Position numbers and translations under genes: made by a program. DNA of 64,000 bases from Mycobacterium sp. DL440 (GTDB taxonomy: Bacteria > Actinomycetota > Actinomycetes > Mycobacteriales > Mycobacteriaceae): NCBI RefSeq assembly GCF_011745145.1, contig NZ_CP050191.1:6248467-6312466 (forward strand). Direction: 5' to 3'. The notes beneath the pieces are model-generated. The model worked only from the letters and a program-made list of their open reading frames with translations, made no database searches and was not told the origin of the DNA. Positions 16,682-22,120 of the stretch are shown one piece after another (within the stretch, counting starts at the first letter, position 1; each line of letters opens with the position of its first letter).

Positions 16682-18010
16682 GTGAGCCCTGCCGGTGATA
16701 TAGAGGCCGATGCGCCGTTGTTCAATCGGCGGCGTGCCCTGACGGTGTTGACCGTCGGAATGGGAGCCGGACTGCTGGCTGCCTGCTCGAGAGGATCGTC
16801 CGTCTCCGCGCCTGAGGCTGAGGGGACCCCGGGGCCGACGGTGACCTACGAGCCTGCCGCCGACTCCGAGGATGTGCTGCCGACGGCGCCGGTCGGCGTG
16901 AAGGTCGACAACGGCGTGTTCCAGCGTGTCAGCCTGACCAATGCCAACGGCAAGGTCGTCGCCGGCAAATTCAACAGCGACCGCACCGCGTTCACTGCCA
17001 CCGAACCCCTCGGCTACGAATCCACCTACACGTGGGCGGGTTCCGTGGTGGGGCAGGACGGCAAGGCCGAATCGGTGCAGGGCAAGTTCTCCACCGTCGC
17101 CCCGCAGAAACAGGTCAACGGTCAGTTCCAGCTCGCCGACGGCCAGGTTGTCGGCGTGGCCGCGCCGATCATCCTGCAATTCGACGCCGCGATCGACGAC
17201 AAGTACCGGGCGACCGTCGAAAAAGTTCTTCGGGTCACCACTACGCCGCCCGTAGAGGGCAGCTGGGCGTGGCTGCCCGACGAGGCCGGCGGCTCGCGCG
17301 TGCACTGGCGCACCCGGGAGTACTACCCGGCGGGAACCAAGGTCAGCGTCAAGGCGCCGCTGTACGGCGTCAGCTTCGGAGACGGCGCCTATGGTGCGAC
17401 CGACTCGACGCTCGACTTCGAGATCGGACGCCGCCAGGTGGTCAAAGCCGAGGCATCCAGCCACCGCATCCAGGTGCTCGACGGATCCGGCGCGGTGATC
17501 ATGGACTTCGCCTGCAGCTACGGCGAGGGTGACCTGGACCGCAACGTCACGCGCAGCGGCGTCCACGTGGTCACCGAGAAGTACGAGGACTTCTGGATGA
17601 CCAACCCCGCCGCCGGGTACAGCAATGTGCACGAACGTTTCGCGGTGCGGATCTCCAACAACGGCGAGTTCATCCACTGCAACCCGAACAGTATCGGTTC
17701 GCAGGGCAACACCAACGTGACCAACGGCTGCATCAACCTGAACCTGGAGAACTCTCAGCAGTACTTCAACAGCGCGATATACGGCGACCCGGTCGAGGTG
17801 ACCGGTACCCGGATTGAACTGTCCTACGCCGACGGTGACCTCTGGGACTGGGCGGTGGACTGGAATGAGTGGAAGGCCATGTCCGCCCTGTCCTCGCAGG
17901 ATTCGCCGGCGAATCTGCCTGCCACGGCCCCGGCGACGCCGACGGACGCTCCGACACTGTCCGGCACGCCCACGACCACGACCCCGCCGAAGCCCACGCC
18001 GGGCGGCTGA
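16682..18010 (+). CDS. ldtE: L,D-transpeptidase lipoprotein LdtE/LprQ
   Basis: 442 residues from GTG 16682. Lipoprotein signal with lipobox LLAACS (Cys about residue 36), Ig-like domains, then a YkuD catalytic domain. The active-site stretch reads [15 protein letters not shown] then NVTNGCINL, with the nucleophile at Cys350. TNGC stands where most L,D-transpeptidases have SHGC. A Thr/Pro-rich tail ends the protein. It forms 3-3 peptidoglycan cross-links outside the membrane. Co-transcribed with murB. Confidence 0.93.
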
Positions 18011-18023
18011 TCCTTCGCGGTTC

Positions 18024-18770
18024 TCACCTGCGGTTGAACCTTCCGTGCGGGGCCTGGTCACGCGGACGGATCACGATCTGATCGAGGTTGACGTGTGACG
18101 GCCGTGACGCGACGAACCCGATCACCTCGGCGACATCCTCGGCGACCAGTGGGGTGATACCCCGGTACACGTTGTCGGCGCGTTCCTGATCGCCGTCGAA
18201 GCGCACCAGCGAGAACTCCGTCTCCACCGCGCCCGGGGCAATCTCGGTGAGCCGCACCGGGTTTCCGAGAAGTTCGCCGCGCAGCGTGCGGTGCAGGGCG
18301 CCCTGGGCGTGTTTGGCCGCGCTATACCCCGAGCCGCCGTCATAGGTCTCGAACGCCGCGATCGAGGTGACGGTGACGATCAGGCCGTCGCCGGAGGCGA
18401 TGAGTTTGGGCAGCAGCGCCCGGGACACCCGCAGGGTGCCCAGCACGTTGGTTTCCCACATCCACTGCCAATGCTCCAGGTCAGCGTCCAGGACGGATTC
18501 CAGCCCCCTGGCCCCGCCGGCGTTGTTCACCAGCACATCCACCCGGTCCAGCTGGGCCGCCAAGGCGTCGACCGCGTCCTGGTCGGTGACATCCGCCACA
18601 ATCGCCGTGCCACCGATCTCCTCGGCCAGCGCCTGGACTCGATCAGCCCGGCGGGCCGTACAGATCACATGAAAGCCCAGGGTGGCAAGGGATCTGGCTG
18701 TCGCGGCACCGATTCCGGCGCTGGCGCCGGTAACCACTGCCACTCGTTGGCCTGACTGTGGTGTCGTCAT
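18024..18770 (-). CDS. Short-chain dehydrogenase/reductase (Rv0484c-like)
   Basis: 248 residues from ATG 18770. Cofactor motif TGASAGIGAA with RRADR favouring NADP, NNAGGA, and catalytic YSAAKHA with a preceding Ser. Closest to the YdfG/serine 3-dehydrogenase branch; the substrate is unknown. Convergent with ldtE (12 bases) and divergent from the ROK regulator leader. Confidence 0.88.
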   Translation of the reverse strand: MTTPQSGQRVAVVTGASAGIGAATARSLATLGFHVICTARRADRVQALAEEIGGTAIVADVTDQDAVDALAAQLDRVDVLVNNAGGARGLESVLDADLEHWQWMWETNVLGTLRVSRALLPKLIASGDGLIVTVTSIAAFETYDGGSGYSAAKHAQGALHRTLRGELLGNPVRLTEIAPGAVETEFSLVRFDGDQERADNVYRGITPLVAEDVAEVIGFVASRPSHVNLDQIVIRPRDQAPHGRFNRR

Positions 18771-18793
18771 CTGACCAACATTAGATGGCGTGC

Positions 18794-18799
18794 TAAGTT
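18794..18799 (+). promoter_or_regulatory. -10 box TAAGTT of the leaderless mshA-operon transcript
   Basis: TAAGTT fits the mycobacterial TANNNT -10. The GTG at 18806 begins six bases after it, where transcription should start, so the mRNA would begin with a start codon (leaderless). Confidence 0.55.
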
Positions 18800-18805
18800 C
18801 TTCGT

Positions 18806-18874
18806 GTGTCCCGGAATCTCCAGTCCCGCTTCGCGCGGCGTGCGTGTTGTTGTTGCGCACCCCGCCGCGCCTGA
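18806..18874 (+). CDS. Leaderless poly-cysteine leader peptide (cysteine attenuator)
   Basis: 22 codons, GTG to TGA, containing four consecutive Cys codons (18845-18856: TGT TGT TGT TGC) within an Arg-rich peptide (MSRNLQSRFARRA before them, APRRA after). GTG is at the predicted transcription start. Poly-Cys leaderless short ORFs are a known cysteine-sensing attenuation device in mycobacteria. The downstream operon encodes a ROK regulator and MshA, the first enzyme of mycothiol (a cysteine-containing thiol) synthesis, which makes physiological sense. Translation is inferred. Confidence 0.8.
   Translation: MSRNLQSRFARRACCCCAPRRA
18833..18870 (+). promoter_or_regulatory. Attenuator hairpin with Cys codons in its loop
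   Basis: GCGCGGCG-TGCG (18833-18844) pairs with CGCA-CCC-CGCCGCGC (18856-18870), leaving a CCC bulge. The loop (18845-18855) is almost exactly the Cys-codon run. A second hairpin follows (GGTGTGGT 18915-18922 with ACCCCACC 18926-18933, one mismatch) before the gene at 18962. Ribosome stalling at Cys codons would change which stems form. Confidence 0.65.
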
Positions 18875-18961
18875 CTGAACCCGGACACCGTTTCCCTGTC
18901 CTGCTGAGTCGCCAGGTGTGGTCCCACCCCACCAGCCGACATCCAGTAGAGGACCATTTAC

Positions 18962-20299
18962 GTGACCACCGCCATTGCCGCCCCCCTTCGGAAGCGCACC
19001 AGTAGCTCCTCAGCTTCGACCAGCACTTCCGCGCGGCCTGCCCGGCCGCTGTCCGCCGCGTCGCGCTATCCACAGTCGCGGCTCCTGCACATCGTCGCCC
19101 CGTCGCTGAAGGTGCCCGACGCCGCCGCGGCATCGGTCTTCAGCGCCGTCCGCACCCGCGGCCCCATCGCCCGGGACGCCGTCGCACAGCTCACGCAGTT
19201 GAGCATCGCGACCGTCAACCGTCAGGTCACCGCACTACTCGACGCCGGAATCCTGCGTGAGCGTGCCGATCTCGCGGTCTCCGGGGCTATCGGACGGCCC
19301 CGCGTGCCCGTCGAGGTCAACCACGAGCCCTACCTCACGCTCGGCATCCACATCGGTGCGCGCACCACCAGCATCGTGGCCACCGACCTGTTCGGTCGCA
19401 CGCTCGACGTGGTCGAGACACCCACCCCGTCGGGACCCCAGGCTGCGGCGTTGGCCACCTTGGCCTCCAGCGCCCGCCGGTACCTGAGCCGTTGGCACCG
19501 TCGCCGCCCGCTGTGGGTCGGTGTGGCCGCCGGTGGCGTCGTCGACAGTGCCACCGGGTATCTCGATCACCCGCGGCTGGGCTGGGCCGATGCCCCGGTG
19601 GGCCCGGTGCTCGCCGAAGCGCTGGCGCTGCCGGTGTCGGTCGCCTCGCACGTGGATGCGATGGCCGGTGCCGAACTGCTGCTGGGGGGACGCCGTTCCG
19701 CCCCGGAGACTGCCGGCACTCCGGCACGGACCAGCCTCTACGTCTACGCCCGCGAGACCGTCGGCTACGCGCTGTCGATCGACGGGCGCGTGCACTCCCC
19801 GGCCAGCGGGCCCGGCACCATCGCCGGCCTGCCTGCGCAATCCGAATTGCTCGGTGGCTCAGGGCAATTGGAATCCACAGTGAGTGACGAAGCGGTGCTC
19901 AACGCAGCCCGCAAGCTGCGGATCGTCCCGGCCGACGGCCCGTCCTCGACGCTGTCGACGGTGCTGCGCGCAGCGCGTCAGGGGAACGGCAAGGCGGTCG
20001 AGTTGCTGGCGGACCGCGCCCGGGTGCTCGGCGAGGCCGTGGCGTTGCTGCGGGATCTGCTCAACCCCGACGATCTGGTGCTCGGTGGTCAGGCCTTCAC
20101 CGAATACCCCGAAGGCCTGCCCGTCGTGGAGGACGCCGTCACGCGCCGTTCGGTGCTGGGGCCCCGCGATATCCGGCTGACGGCCTTCGGCAACCGGGTT
20201 CAGGAGGCCAGTGCCGGCATCGTTTCGCTGGGCGGCCTGTATGCGGATCCGATCGGTGCCATGCGGCGCGCTCAAACCCGTCGATCGGCGGCGGTGTAG
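18962..20299 (+). CDS. ROK-family transcriptional regulator (Rv0485-like)
   Basis: 445 residues from GTG 18962, preceded by AGAGGA. A Ser-rich N-terminus leads to a winged helix ([20 protein letters not shown]) and a ROK/NagC-type ASKHA domain. In the sugar-kinase-like part [18 protein letters not shown] is visible, while the usual ROK zinc CXCGXXGC motif is not seen, suggesting a sensor rather than a kinase. Rv0485 has been linked to PE/PPE regulation. It lies 10 bases before mshA, downstream of the cysteine-type leader. Confidence 0.88.
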
Positions 20300-20309
20300 A
20301 CATGTCTTT

Positions 20310-21614
20310 GTGCGTCTAGCCACAGACCTCGAGATTCCCCGCCGCGTTGCGGTGATTTCCGTACACACGTCGCCGCTGGCGCAGCCGGGTACCGGTGACG
20401 CCGGCGGGATGAATGTCTACGTGCTGCAGACCGCGTTGCAGCTGGCCCGTCGCGGTGTCGAGGTGGAGGTTTTCACCAGGGCCACGTCGTCCTCGGACGC
20501 CCCGGTGGTGCCGGTGGCGCCCGGGGTGTTGGTGCGCAACGTGGTGGCCGGGCCGTTCGAGGGCCTGGACAAGTACGACCTGCCGACCCAGCTGTGCGCG
20601 TTCACCGCGGGGGTGTTGCGGGCCGAGGCGACGCACGAGCCCGGCTATTACGATGTCGTCCACTCGCACTACTGGCTGTCCGGTCAGGTCGGCTGGCTGG
20701 CCCGGGACCGCTGGGCGGTGCCGCTCGTTCACACCGCGCACACTCTGGCCGCGGTGAAGAACGCCGCACTGGCCGCAGGTGATTCGCCCGAGCCGCCGCT
20801 GCGCGCGGTGGGGGAGCAGCAGGTGGTCGACGAGGCTGATCGTCTCATCGTGAACACCGAACATGAAGCACAGCAACTGGTTTCGCTTCACCAAGCCGAT
20901 CCGGAACGTATCGATGTGGTGCATCCCGGGGTGGATCTGGATGCCTTCACCCCGGGGGATCGCGACGCGGCGCGCGCAGTGCTCGGCATTGCGCCGCACG
21001 AGCAGGTGGTCGCGTTCGTGGGCCGGATCCAGCCGCTCAAGGCGCCCGACGTGCTGTTGCGTGCCGCCGCCAAACTGCCCGGGGTCCGGGTGCTGGTCGC
21101 CGGTGGGCCGTCGGGCAGTGGCTTGGCCGAGCCCGACACCCTGGTTCGCCTGGCCGACGATCTGGGTATCACCGACCGTGTGACGTTCCTGCCCCCGCAG
21201 TCCCGCGAACAGTTGGTCAACGTGTACCGCGCCGCCGATCTGGTCGCGGTGCCCAGCTACTCCGAATCGTTCGGCCTGGTCGCGATCGAGGCCCAGGCGT
21301 GCGGGACACCGGTGGTGGCGGCCGCGGTCGGTGGTCTGCCGGTCGCGGTGGCCGACGGTGTCAGCGGGGCACTGGTCGACGGGCACGACGTCGACGACTG
21401 GGCGGCTGCGATCGATGACGTACTGAAGCGCGATCCGGGTCCGTTGCGCCTGGCCGCCGCGGCCCACGCCGCGCAGTTCTCCTGGGCGCACACCGTCGAT
21501 GCCCTGCTGAACAGTTACGCCCATGCGATGAGCGACTACCGGTCCCGGCACCGCAGGCCGTCTGTCCGCCGTCCGGGACGCCGGTTCGCGTTGCGACGCG
21601 GGGTGCGGACGTGA
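20310..21614 (+). CDS. mshA: D-inositol-3-phosphate glycosyltransferase, mycothiol synthesis
   Basis: 434 residues from GTG 20310; the frame is open further upstream into the ROK gene but similarity starts at [22 protein letters not shown] fold, GT4 family: nucleotide-sugar side shows [15 protein letters not shown] and [17 protein letters not shown]. It adds GlcNAc from UDP-GlcNAc to inositol-3-phosphate, the committed step to mycothiol. A 5-codon ATG frame (20302-20319) overlaps the start. The stop overlaps the next start as GTGA. Confidence 0.97.
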
Positions 21615-22120
21615 GCGTCGAACAGCTGATCGCCGATACCCTCGACGAGCACGAGCTGGTCTACCACCGGCACGAGGGCGCCCACGGCGGCTTGCCCGGC
21701 ATCGTCGTCGAACTGCCCGGCGAGCGGCGCCTGGTGACCAACACCATCCTGAGCATCGGCGAGCACTCGGTGCGGGTAGAGGCATTCGTCTGCCGCAAGC
21801 CCGACGAGAACTTCGAAGGCGTCTACCGGTTCCTGCTCAAACGCAACCGGAGGCTCTACGGCGTCGCCTACACCCTCGACAACGTCGGCGACATCTACCT
21901 CGTCGGCCGGATGGCGCTGGAAGCGGTCACCGCCGAGGAGATCGACCGGGTGCTCGGACAGGTGCTCGAAGCCGTCGACTCCGACTTCAACACCTTGCTG
22001 GAACTGGGTTTCCGCTCGTCCATCCAGAAAGAGTGGGAGTGGCGCGTCTCCCGCGGTGAGTCGCTCAAGAACCTGAAGGCCTTCGAACATCTGATAGATG
22101 AGCGTCTGATCGACGACTGA
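21611..22120 (+). CDS. YbjN-domain protein (Rv0487-like)
   Basis: 169 residues from GTG 21611, coupled to mshA by a GTGA overlap. YbjN domains have a type III secretion chaperone-like fold and no assigned enzymatic role. [20 protein letters not shown] and [20 protein letters not shown] are typical. Conserved next to mshA in mycobacteria, which hints at a shared condition of expression rather than a proven link. Confidence 0.85.

Follow-up and report, generated by a model that had tools for sequence, protein, structure and literature searches.

Upstream of two neighboring genes in Mycobacterium sp. DL440, one encoding a ROK-family transcriptional regulator and the other MshA, the first enzyme of mycothiol synthesis, lies a very small open reading frame (uORF) that is rich in cysteine codons. 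The question is what this leader senses and which of the two genes it serves. In the window, i.e., the whole stretch of 64,000 nucleotides that was analyzed, the ROK gene occupies 18962–20299 (GTG 18962; PF00480, 58.4 bits; NagC/Mlc-like below cut-off) and mshA 20310–21614 (TIGR03449, 663.5 bits vs. a cut-off of 462.5, scanned from 20313); these and all features described below are on the + strand. With the mshA start read by eye as GTG 20310, the gap between both genes is 10 nt. The first-pass annotation proposed a cysteine attenuator in front of mshA. Its attenuator-like Cys leader is indeed conserved, but mshA loses its place as the central target, as the leader tracks the ROK gene. The tiny Cys-rich uORF very probably lets ribosomes sense a shortage of cysteine. 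We consider it likely that it belongs to a cysteine-responsive translational attenuator of which ROK is the conserved target, mshA being a passenger behind it in Mycobacterium.

Based on gene order, we take the ROK gene of the window to be the ortholog of Rv0485/Msmeg_0932, a label that is also found in PMC4633059. The locus has been described: Shell et al. (2015) presented a leaderless uORF upstream of Rv0485/Msmeg_0932 that is rich in Cys and conserved, and suggested attenuation (PMC4633059, Fig 7B). The leader is thus already in print and its existence is no news. As here, it concerns an orthologous leader before the same gene, kept between M. tuberculosis and M. smegmatis, and Fig. 7 includes ribosome profiling of this locus in M. 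smegmatis (PMC4633059). In contrast to the assignment made here, the text of that paper describes the gene that follows the leader in Fig 7B as ‘putative hypothetical,’ and a test of ROK against mshA, an RNA switch and sister-genus leaders for the Rv0485 locus are not found in the available part of it (PMC4633059). A literature search, mostly at title level, gave no further title on the Rv0485/Msmeg_0932 leader. Beyond what was found in print, the leader is tied to ROK and not to mshA, and ROK is divergent to a TauD-type gene in sister genera.

The Leader in the Window and Across Mycobacteria

The leaderless frame that had been annotated before ROK-mshA, with its 22 codons and its uninterrupted row of four Cys codons, is present as described. 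This uORF, MSRNLQSRFARRACCCCAPRRA, runs from GTG 18806 to the stop codon TGA at 18872–18874 (18806–18874), and its Cys codons TGT TGT TGT TGC (18845–18856) are the presumed cysteinyl-tRNA sensor. An extended -10 element, TGC-TAAGTT (18791–18799, with the hexamer TAAGTT at 18794–18799), is located 6 nt before the GTG, and the transcription start is predicted at 18806. Here and below, the term leaderless was assigned solely by promoter position, namely the distance between the -10 element and the RTG. A GTG at 18804 is disfavored as the start, because the -10 spacing and the invariant hexamer columns point to 18806; across the mycobacterial leader alignment, neither T, A, T, and T of the hexamer nor the TG before it shows any variation. 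The statement that the Cys codons fill the loop of a strong hairpin turned out to be nearly exact, as they form a 7-nt hairpin loop (18847–18853) plus its closing pairs. Folding of 18806–18980 gives a minimum free energy of -62.4 kcal/mol (z -2.59), and 0 of 200 shuffles were equally stable.

The four-Cys motif alone proves nothing, because TGYx4 is no commoner in the 6.38-Mb genome than the reversed pattern that served as control (65 vs. 79 rows). Among the other 64 TGYx4 rows, only five overlapping ones, at the locus L279, correspond to a leaderless ORF of at most 60 codons. This second leaderless Cys leader of the same genome is found at approximately 4.35 Mb (L279:1435–1524), contains eight consecutive Cys and precedes a 159-aa ORF and an ORF that is rhodanese-like by eye. 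Its peptide, VSARLELVLTKRRAVDLCRVAGCCCCCCCC, scores 49.4 bits against a cut-off of 45 for NF042933, the Ms5788A leader family, and also matches NF042934 (cis_reg_atten). The window leader has the same leaderless plan as this member; it gave no match to NF042933 or NF042934 at E up to 1, in a search whose filters may drop a query of 22 residues.

While the motif alone is uninformative, conservation speaks against a product of chance. With the ROK gene as query, named mycobacterial loci were collected (the best 80 of at least 281 relatives). Two of these, L013 and L076, end before the leader, which leaves 78 loci for comparison and, when the window is included, 79 leaders. In 78/78 complete named loci, ROK is preceded by a leaderless RTG ORF that has at least three Cys in six codons, and in these and the window the uORF ends 69–97 nt before a Shine–Dalgarno-led ROK start. 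A TANNNT hexamer is located 6 nt (71 leaders) or 7 nt (8 leaders) upstream of the RTG in 79/79, a count obtained with a leader-calling script that favored starts with this hexamer. The longest Cys run is five in 3 leaders, four in 47, three in 22, and two in 7; it therefore reaches at least three in 72/79, and the seven leaders with a run of two still have at least three Cys in six codons. The uORFs are 13 to 27 codons long, and 65 of the 79 peptides end in RA-stop. In a separate sample of the genus Mycobacterium, the leader is present at 30/30 ROK loci with a spacing of 4–9 nt (6–7 nt in 27 of the 30); two of the 32 genomes on the genus list had no ROK match. Such a leader was found in 0/1003 antisense windows of the loci L002–L081. 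The alignment across mycobacteria that had been proposed as a check thus spoke for the leader, and these comparisons support a strong conservation of a leaderless Cys leader with an attenuator-like anatomy.

This anatomy resembles that of other mycobacterial leaders. Canestrari et al. reportedly described polycysteine leaderless sORF attenuators of M. smegmatis in Mol Microbiol in 2020, which are said to act by SD sequestration at six loci. The leaders studied here likewise combine a leaderless RTG (79/79, by promoter position) with a run of Cys codons and a sequestered downstream ribosome-binding site. At the ROK leader, the first gene encodes a transcription regulator. Generally, leaderless ORFs with contiguous Cys codons are reviewed as attenuating downstream translation (PMC9031893), and six Cys sORFs have been predicted in M. 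tuberculosis (PMC9094748).

ROK or mshA as the Partner of the Leader

To cover sister genera of the same GTDB family, 66 loci were picked from 234 sister-genus genomes in which ROK had a match, so that 27 genera were represented. The sequence of one (L166) is incomplete, so 65 loci were scored, and five further loci were checked separately. The identity of ROK is 36–60% there. A relaxed rule, fixed after leaders had been seen (leaderless ORF of 20–60 codons with at least two Cys in the last 18 codons), detects a leader before ROK in 59/65 loci, and the strict rule does so in 32/65; for the five further loci this is 5/5 and 3/5, respectively. With either rule, leaders were found in 0/647 antisense and 0/386 sense control windows. 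Failures under the relaxed rule amount to 6/65 (g3 and g4, 0/2 each, L164 and L144) and under the strict rule to 33/65; g3 consists of Corynebacterium-sized genomes, and L144 does carry the peptide, but with a longer tail. The sister-genus peptides are strongly alike, typically ..VTYVTAALGSRLPLARELCC.., with an RLP motif common to 52 of the 59. In a different family of the order, 0/14 ROK loci have a leader under either rule. For g9 and g11, the genomes searched have two ROK matches each, and the leader was scored at the better match. A leader of the Nocardia type was also sought in the genome of the window itself and was dismissed, the best E being 0.835.

The position of mshA makes it possible to separate both candidate partners. 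In Mycobacterium, mshA adjoins ROK in 28/30 loci. In the sister genera it is mostly apart from ROK, and 13 of 20 sister-genus stretches contain no mshA within roughly 8.7 kb downstream of ROK. Non-adjacent mshA genes have the leader in 0/22 cases, strict or relaxed. Three of these 22 (G020, G027, G083) are on the same strand 3–9 kb downstream of ROK and the remaining ones are far from ROK or on another contig; in G135 there is no ROK among the matches listed. Since the leader is kept before ROK where mshA is elsewhere and is missing from all 22 non-adjacent mshA genes, it goes with ROK and not with mshA. In Mycobacterium, mshA is probably co-regulated, but as a passenger of the leader. The two Mycobacterium loci L119 and L135 have ROK-mshA gaps of about 0.9 kb and 3.8 kb, and there the leader stays with ROK.

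RNA Folding and the Position of the Ribosome

For the fold tests, 94 leaders were reduced to 72 by removing near-identical ones, and 61 of these 72 form alignment A1; 14 of the 29 genus-sample leaders besides that of the window, all on reversed loci, were left out. Segment A, the 5′ arm of the uORF hairpin (18821–18844), comprises CAGTC at 18821–18825 and GCGGCGTGCG at 18835–18844 and pairs with the uORF tail. This tail, GCCGCGCCTGA (18864–18874), which codes for ..RRA-stop, is segment B and may pair with A or, according to the RNAalifold consensus, with C. Segment C, AGTCG(CC)AGGTGTGG (18907–18921), was delimited by alignment and RNAalifold and would pair with B when the switch is open or with D when the Shine–Dalgarno region is sequestered. 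Segment D, CCACC..CGAC (18929–18940), is the 3′ arm of the SD-sequestering hairpin. Within this hairpin, the anti-Shine–Dalgarno sequence GTCCT (18898–18902) covers the ROK Shine–Dalgarno sequence AGAGGA (18948–18953), as judged from folding, permutation and alignment. Because B is shared by A and C, and C by B and D, the pairings A:B, B:C, and C:D are mutually exclusive, as in classical attenuators. Segment B sits where a terminating ribosome would cover the RNA.

In the aligned leaders, the helix over the ROK Shine–Dalgarno sequence is conserved. Over the 72 leaders, cognate anti-SD and SD sequences pair with -8.63 kcal/mol vs. -7.88 kcal/mol for permuted partners, and 0/2000 permutations reach the cognate value; the same test gave 3/2000 for the uORF stem and 9/2000 for the inner arms, while five control pairings gave 160 to 2000 of 2000. 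The OFF structure consists of SD:GTCCT enclosing the AGTCG/CGACT and GGTG/CACC helices, plus the uORF hairpin. In A1 (61 leaders), 85.7% of its cells are paired, vs. 33–40% when it is slid along the alignment. The proportion is 87.1% for the anti-SD helix, 86.3% and 95.1% for helices 5 and 6, to which segment D contributes, and 88.9%, 87.8%, and 64.8% for helices 1, 2, and 3 of the uORF hairpin, in which segment A pairs with the uORF tail; the inner Cys hairpin (helix 3) is thus kept moderately. Double-change cells number 21 vs. 10.8 in shuffles (0/500), although they are not in excess of slid controls (21 vs. 21–33), and the same holds for pair types (30 vs. 26–41), which do not exceed shuffles either (104/500). 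The SD-sequestering structure, as the feature shared with the polycysteine attenuators, is therefore present computationally, with double changes and pair types not above the slid controls. Most likely, the regulatory output is this downstream helix over the ROK ribosome-binding site and not the Cys-loop hairpin itself. No Rfam covariance model matched the interval 17000–22000 at E up to 1.

Within the proposed switch, the competition by B:C is the most uncertain element. RNAalifold proposes it as a helix of the uORF tail GCCGCGCCU with the spacer AGGUGUGGC, for which 97.3% of the cells are paired over 61 sequences; it is nearly invariant and without covariation (93/500). Leader by leader, the helix is weak. 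It reaches at least four expected pairs in only 26/72 leaders, with 0.9 in the window, and in a single-leader shuffle test at most 5% of the shuffles were as good in 23/62, 2/10, and 10/47 leaders of three groups. Another anti-sequestor, P2:P3 (GGAC after the stop codon with GTCC), is conserved by eye, but shows no covariation (785/2000 permutations; 331/500 for cells paired), and B:C was preferred for this reason.

The effect of the ribosome on these folds was computed with an assumed footprint from 15 nt behind to 14 nt from the start of the A-site codon. When the upstream RNA is omitted, the modeled cost of opening the Shine–Dalgarno region, averaged over 72 leaders, is 4.08 kcal/mol while the first three Cys codons are occupied by the ribosome and 5.95 kcal/mol when it is at the stop codon. 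The difference of +1.87 kcal/mol is positive in 58/72 leaders (+2.8 in the window), and dinucleotide shuffling of the spacers brings it to 0.00 (range -0.19 to +0.15 in 12 replicates). In a position scan under the same setting, the Cys codons are not special, as the cost is about 3.5–4.4 kcal/mol from the start codon onward and is higher only from the fourth Cys on, above all at the stop codon. Since codons before the Cys run cost the same as the Cys codons, the model implies that the Shine–Dalgarno region would close when the end of the leader is reached and that any earlier stall would keep it open. When the upstream RNA is allowed to pair, the costs are 5.17 kcal/mol for the Cys state, 6.04 for the stop state and 5.13 for free RNA. 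The Cys state is then more open than the stop state in 49/72 leaders, but no more open than free RNA (lower in 37/72, p 0.45). The effect is negative in 5/5 tested members of a divergent Mycobacterium subgroup (L127, L128, L132–L134). A switch by ribosome position is thus suggested by computation, with exceptions.

Taken together, the leader would work as follows. Transcription would start on the GTG, so that translation of the 22 codons begins at the extreme 5′ end. With ample Cys-tRNA, the ribosome would run to the stop codon and cover segment B, leaving C free for D; GTCCT would then pair with the ROK Shine–Dalgarno sequence and ROK would be poorly translated. The low translation of ROK would be followed by mshA, probably via coupling across the 10 nt. 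With scarce Cys-tRNA, the ribosome would stall on the Cys run and A could not hold B, which would pair with C, weaken the sequestering hairpin and allow ROK to be translated. ROK would then most likely control sulfur acquisition. For the locus of the window, we infer the dependence on cysteine, the coupling to mshA and the role of ROK in sulfur regulation.

Other explanations would give the leader a different role, or none. It is improbable that it arose as a means of tying the entry into mycothiol synthesis to the cysteine supply, with mshA as the selected target, which had been the central point of the first-pass annotation. The short distance between ROK and mshA, in the window and in most Mycobacterium loci, fits such a feedback, and in sulfur-limited Rhodococcus qingshengii the mycothiol enzymes were slightly more abundant, with MshA seen only there, in stationary phase (PMC8557817). 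Yet the leader is kept with ROK across genera and missing from mshA genes located elsewhere, and an attenuator would raise its gene under cysteine shortage, whereas thrift in a pathway that consumes cysteine would call for the reverse. There is also a small chance that the peptide and not the supply of Cys-tRNA is under selection, through nascent-peptide arrest or as a small peptide acting in trans. The RLP motif and the strong likeness of the sister-genus leaders, as well as the RA-stop tail of the mycobacterial ones, would suit a selected peptide. However, the N-terminal parts vary in mycobacteria along with the length, the RRA tail is accounted for by RNA pairing, the peptides of Mycobacterium and the sister genera are unlike each other by eye, and no NCBIfam match (nine leaders) or Pfam match (six leaders) was obtained. 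A non-functional small ORF, conserved merely because it overlaps with the promoter and the 5′ region, is very improbable. TGYx4 does occur at chance level in the genome, but Cys run, frame and -10 spacing are kept in 79/79 leaders while the length changes by whole codons, the antisense windows are devoid of such leaders, and the sister genera have leaders too.

The remaining alternative concerns the mechanism. The stall could determine whether ROK is reached by read-through or lost to termination, either Rho-dependent or through decay of RNA that is not translated, instead of governing access to the Shine–Dalgarno region; we regard this as unlikely, though clearly worth weighing. Rv0485 orthologs have a high 5′UTR-to-CDS RNA ratio in two species, M. 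marinum and M. bovis (PMC4128351), which would be more easily explained by termination or decay than by control of translation alone, and the 87-nt spacer between uORF and ROK is free of ribosomes. A precedent is the ilvB1 uORF of M. tuberculosis, a transcription attenuator in which, as proposed here, amino-acid codons in the uORF choose between alternative RNA folds (PMC13236596). The ilvB1 attenuator uses an intrinsic terminator (PMC13236596), whereas none is credible at the ROK leader: no GC-rich hairpin with a U tract was found before ROK, and the three terminator-like matches in 18700–19000 all lie inside the uORF and look spurious, their T tail being the TTGTTGTTG of the Cys codons. The conservation of the SD helix beyond permutation also argues against termination as the sole output. 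Transcription attenuation and SD sequestration could act together.

ROK and Sulfur Supply

If translational attenuation of ROK is the function of the leader, the protein should report sulfur supply, a prediction that can be compared with its neighborhood. In 15/65 sister-genus loci, belonging to six genera, a TauD-type dioxygenase gene (PF02668) is divergent to ROK within 600 nt. At L209:1653–2609 (-) and the 14 other loci concerned, TauD is divergent to the Cys leader and ROK, an arrangement that looks like a regulator-target pair. In Mycobacterium, TauD was found beside ROK in 0/30 loci. In R. qingshengii IGTS8, which is linked to the loci studied here by gene order alone, ROK (peg5940) is located beside TauD (peg5939) and a choline sulfatase gene, and mshA is peg5948 (PMC8557817), a distance of eight gene numbers. 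ROK of this strain was 18–33-fold up in a sulfate-starved culture with dibenzothiophene, and TauD and the sulfatase were detected only in the dibenzothiophene culture (PMC8557817). Moreover, in all four loci of genus g21 (L180, L181, L199, L200), the gene for an ABC-transporter solute-binding protein of SBP family 5 directly follows ROK; at L220, from the same genome as L180, the SBP gene overlaps ROK by 4 nt and is followed by a permease gene. The TauD neighbors, the induction of ROK in IGTS8, placed by gene order only, and the SBP gene after ROK make it probable that this regulator responds to sulfur and is itself subject to cysteine attenuation.

Tentatively, and with somewhat less than even confidence, this can be extended to the whole family. 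ROK (Rv0485) would then be a family-wide sulfur-starvation regulator of the Mycobacteriaceae that is switched on by stalls of cysteine-starved ribosomes, with mycothiol synthesis placed in the same operon in Mycobacterium. Dissimilar leader peptides, CCCC..RRA in Mycobacterium and ..VTYVTAALGSRLPLARELCC.. in Nocardia/Rhodococcus-like genera, would have an equivalent role upstream of ROK. If true, the lasting association of a cysteine attenuator with the gene of a transcription regulator in many genera would turn local attenuation into a regulatory cascade, in which the cell reads cysteine at the ribosome and relays the reading to transcription. A signal would also have been found for a ROK protein that reportedly regulates the PE13/PPE18 pair and is essential for virulence (PMC4128351).

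Two further features concern the regulator itself. By eye, the mycobacterial ROK protein (18962–20299 in the window) lacks the Cys-rich CxCGxxGC of the Nocardia/Rhodococcus-like orthologs L208 and L209, and its zinc site has possibly been lost. At 18781–18796 of the window, an inverted repeat TTAG-N8-CTAA overlaps the -10 element and is fairly conserved in mycobacteria. With a longer consensus of this repeat, the site of the window is the sole match in the genome within 3 mismatches; a role as genome-wide operator was therefore rejected, and the repeat is a candidate ROK operator for autoregulation.
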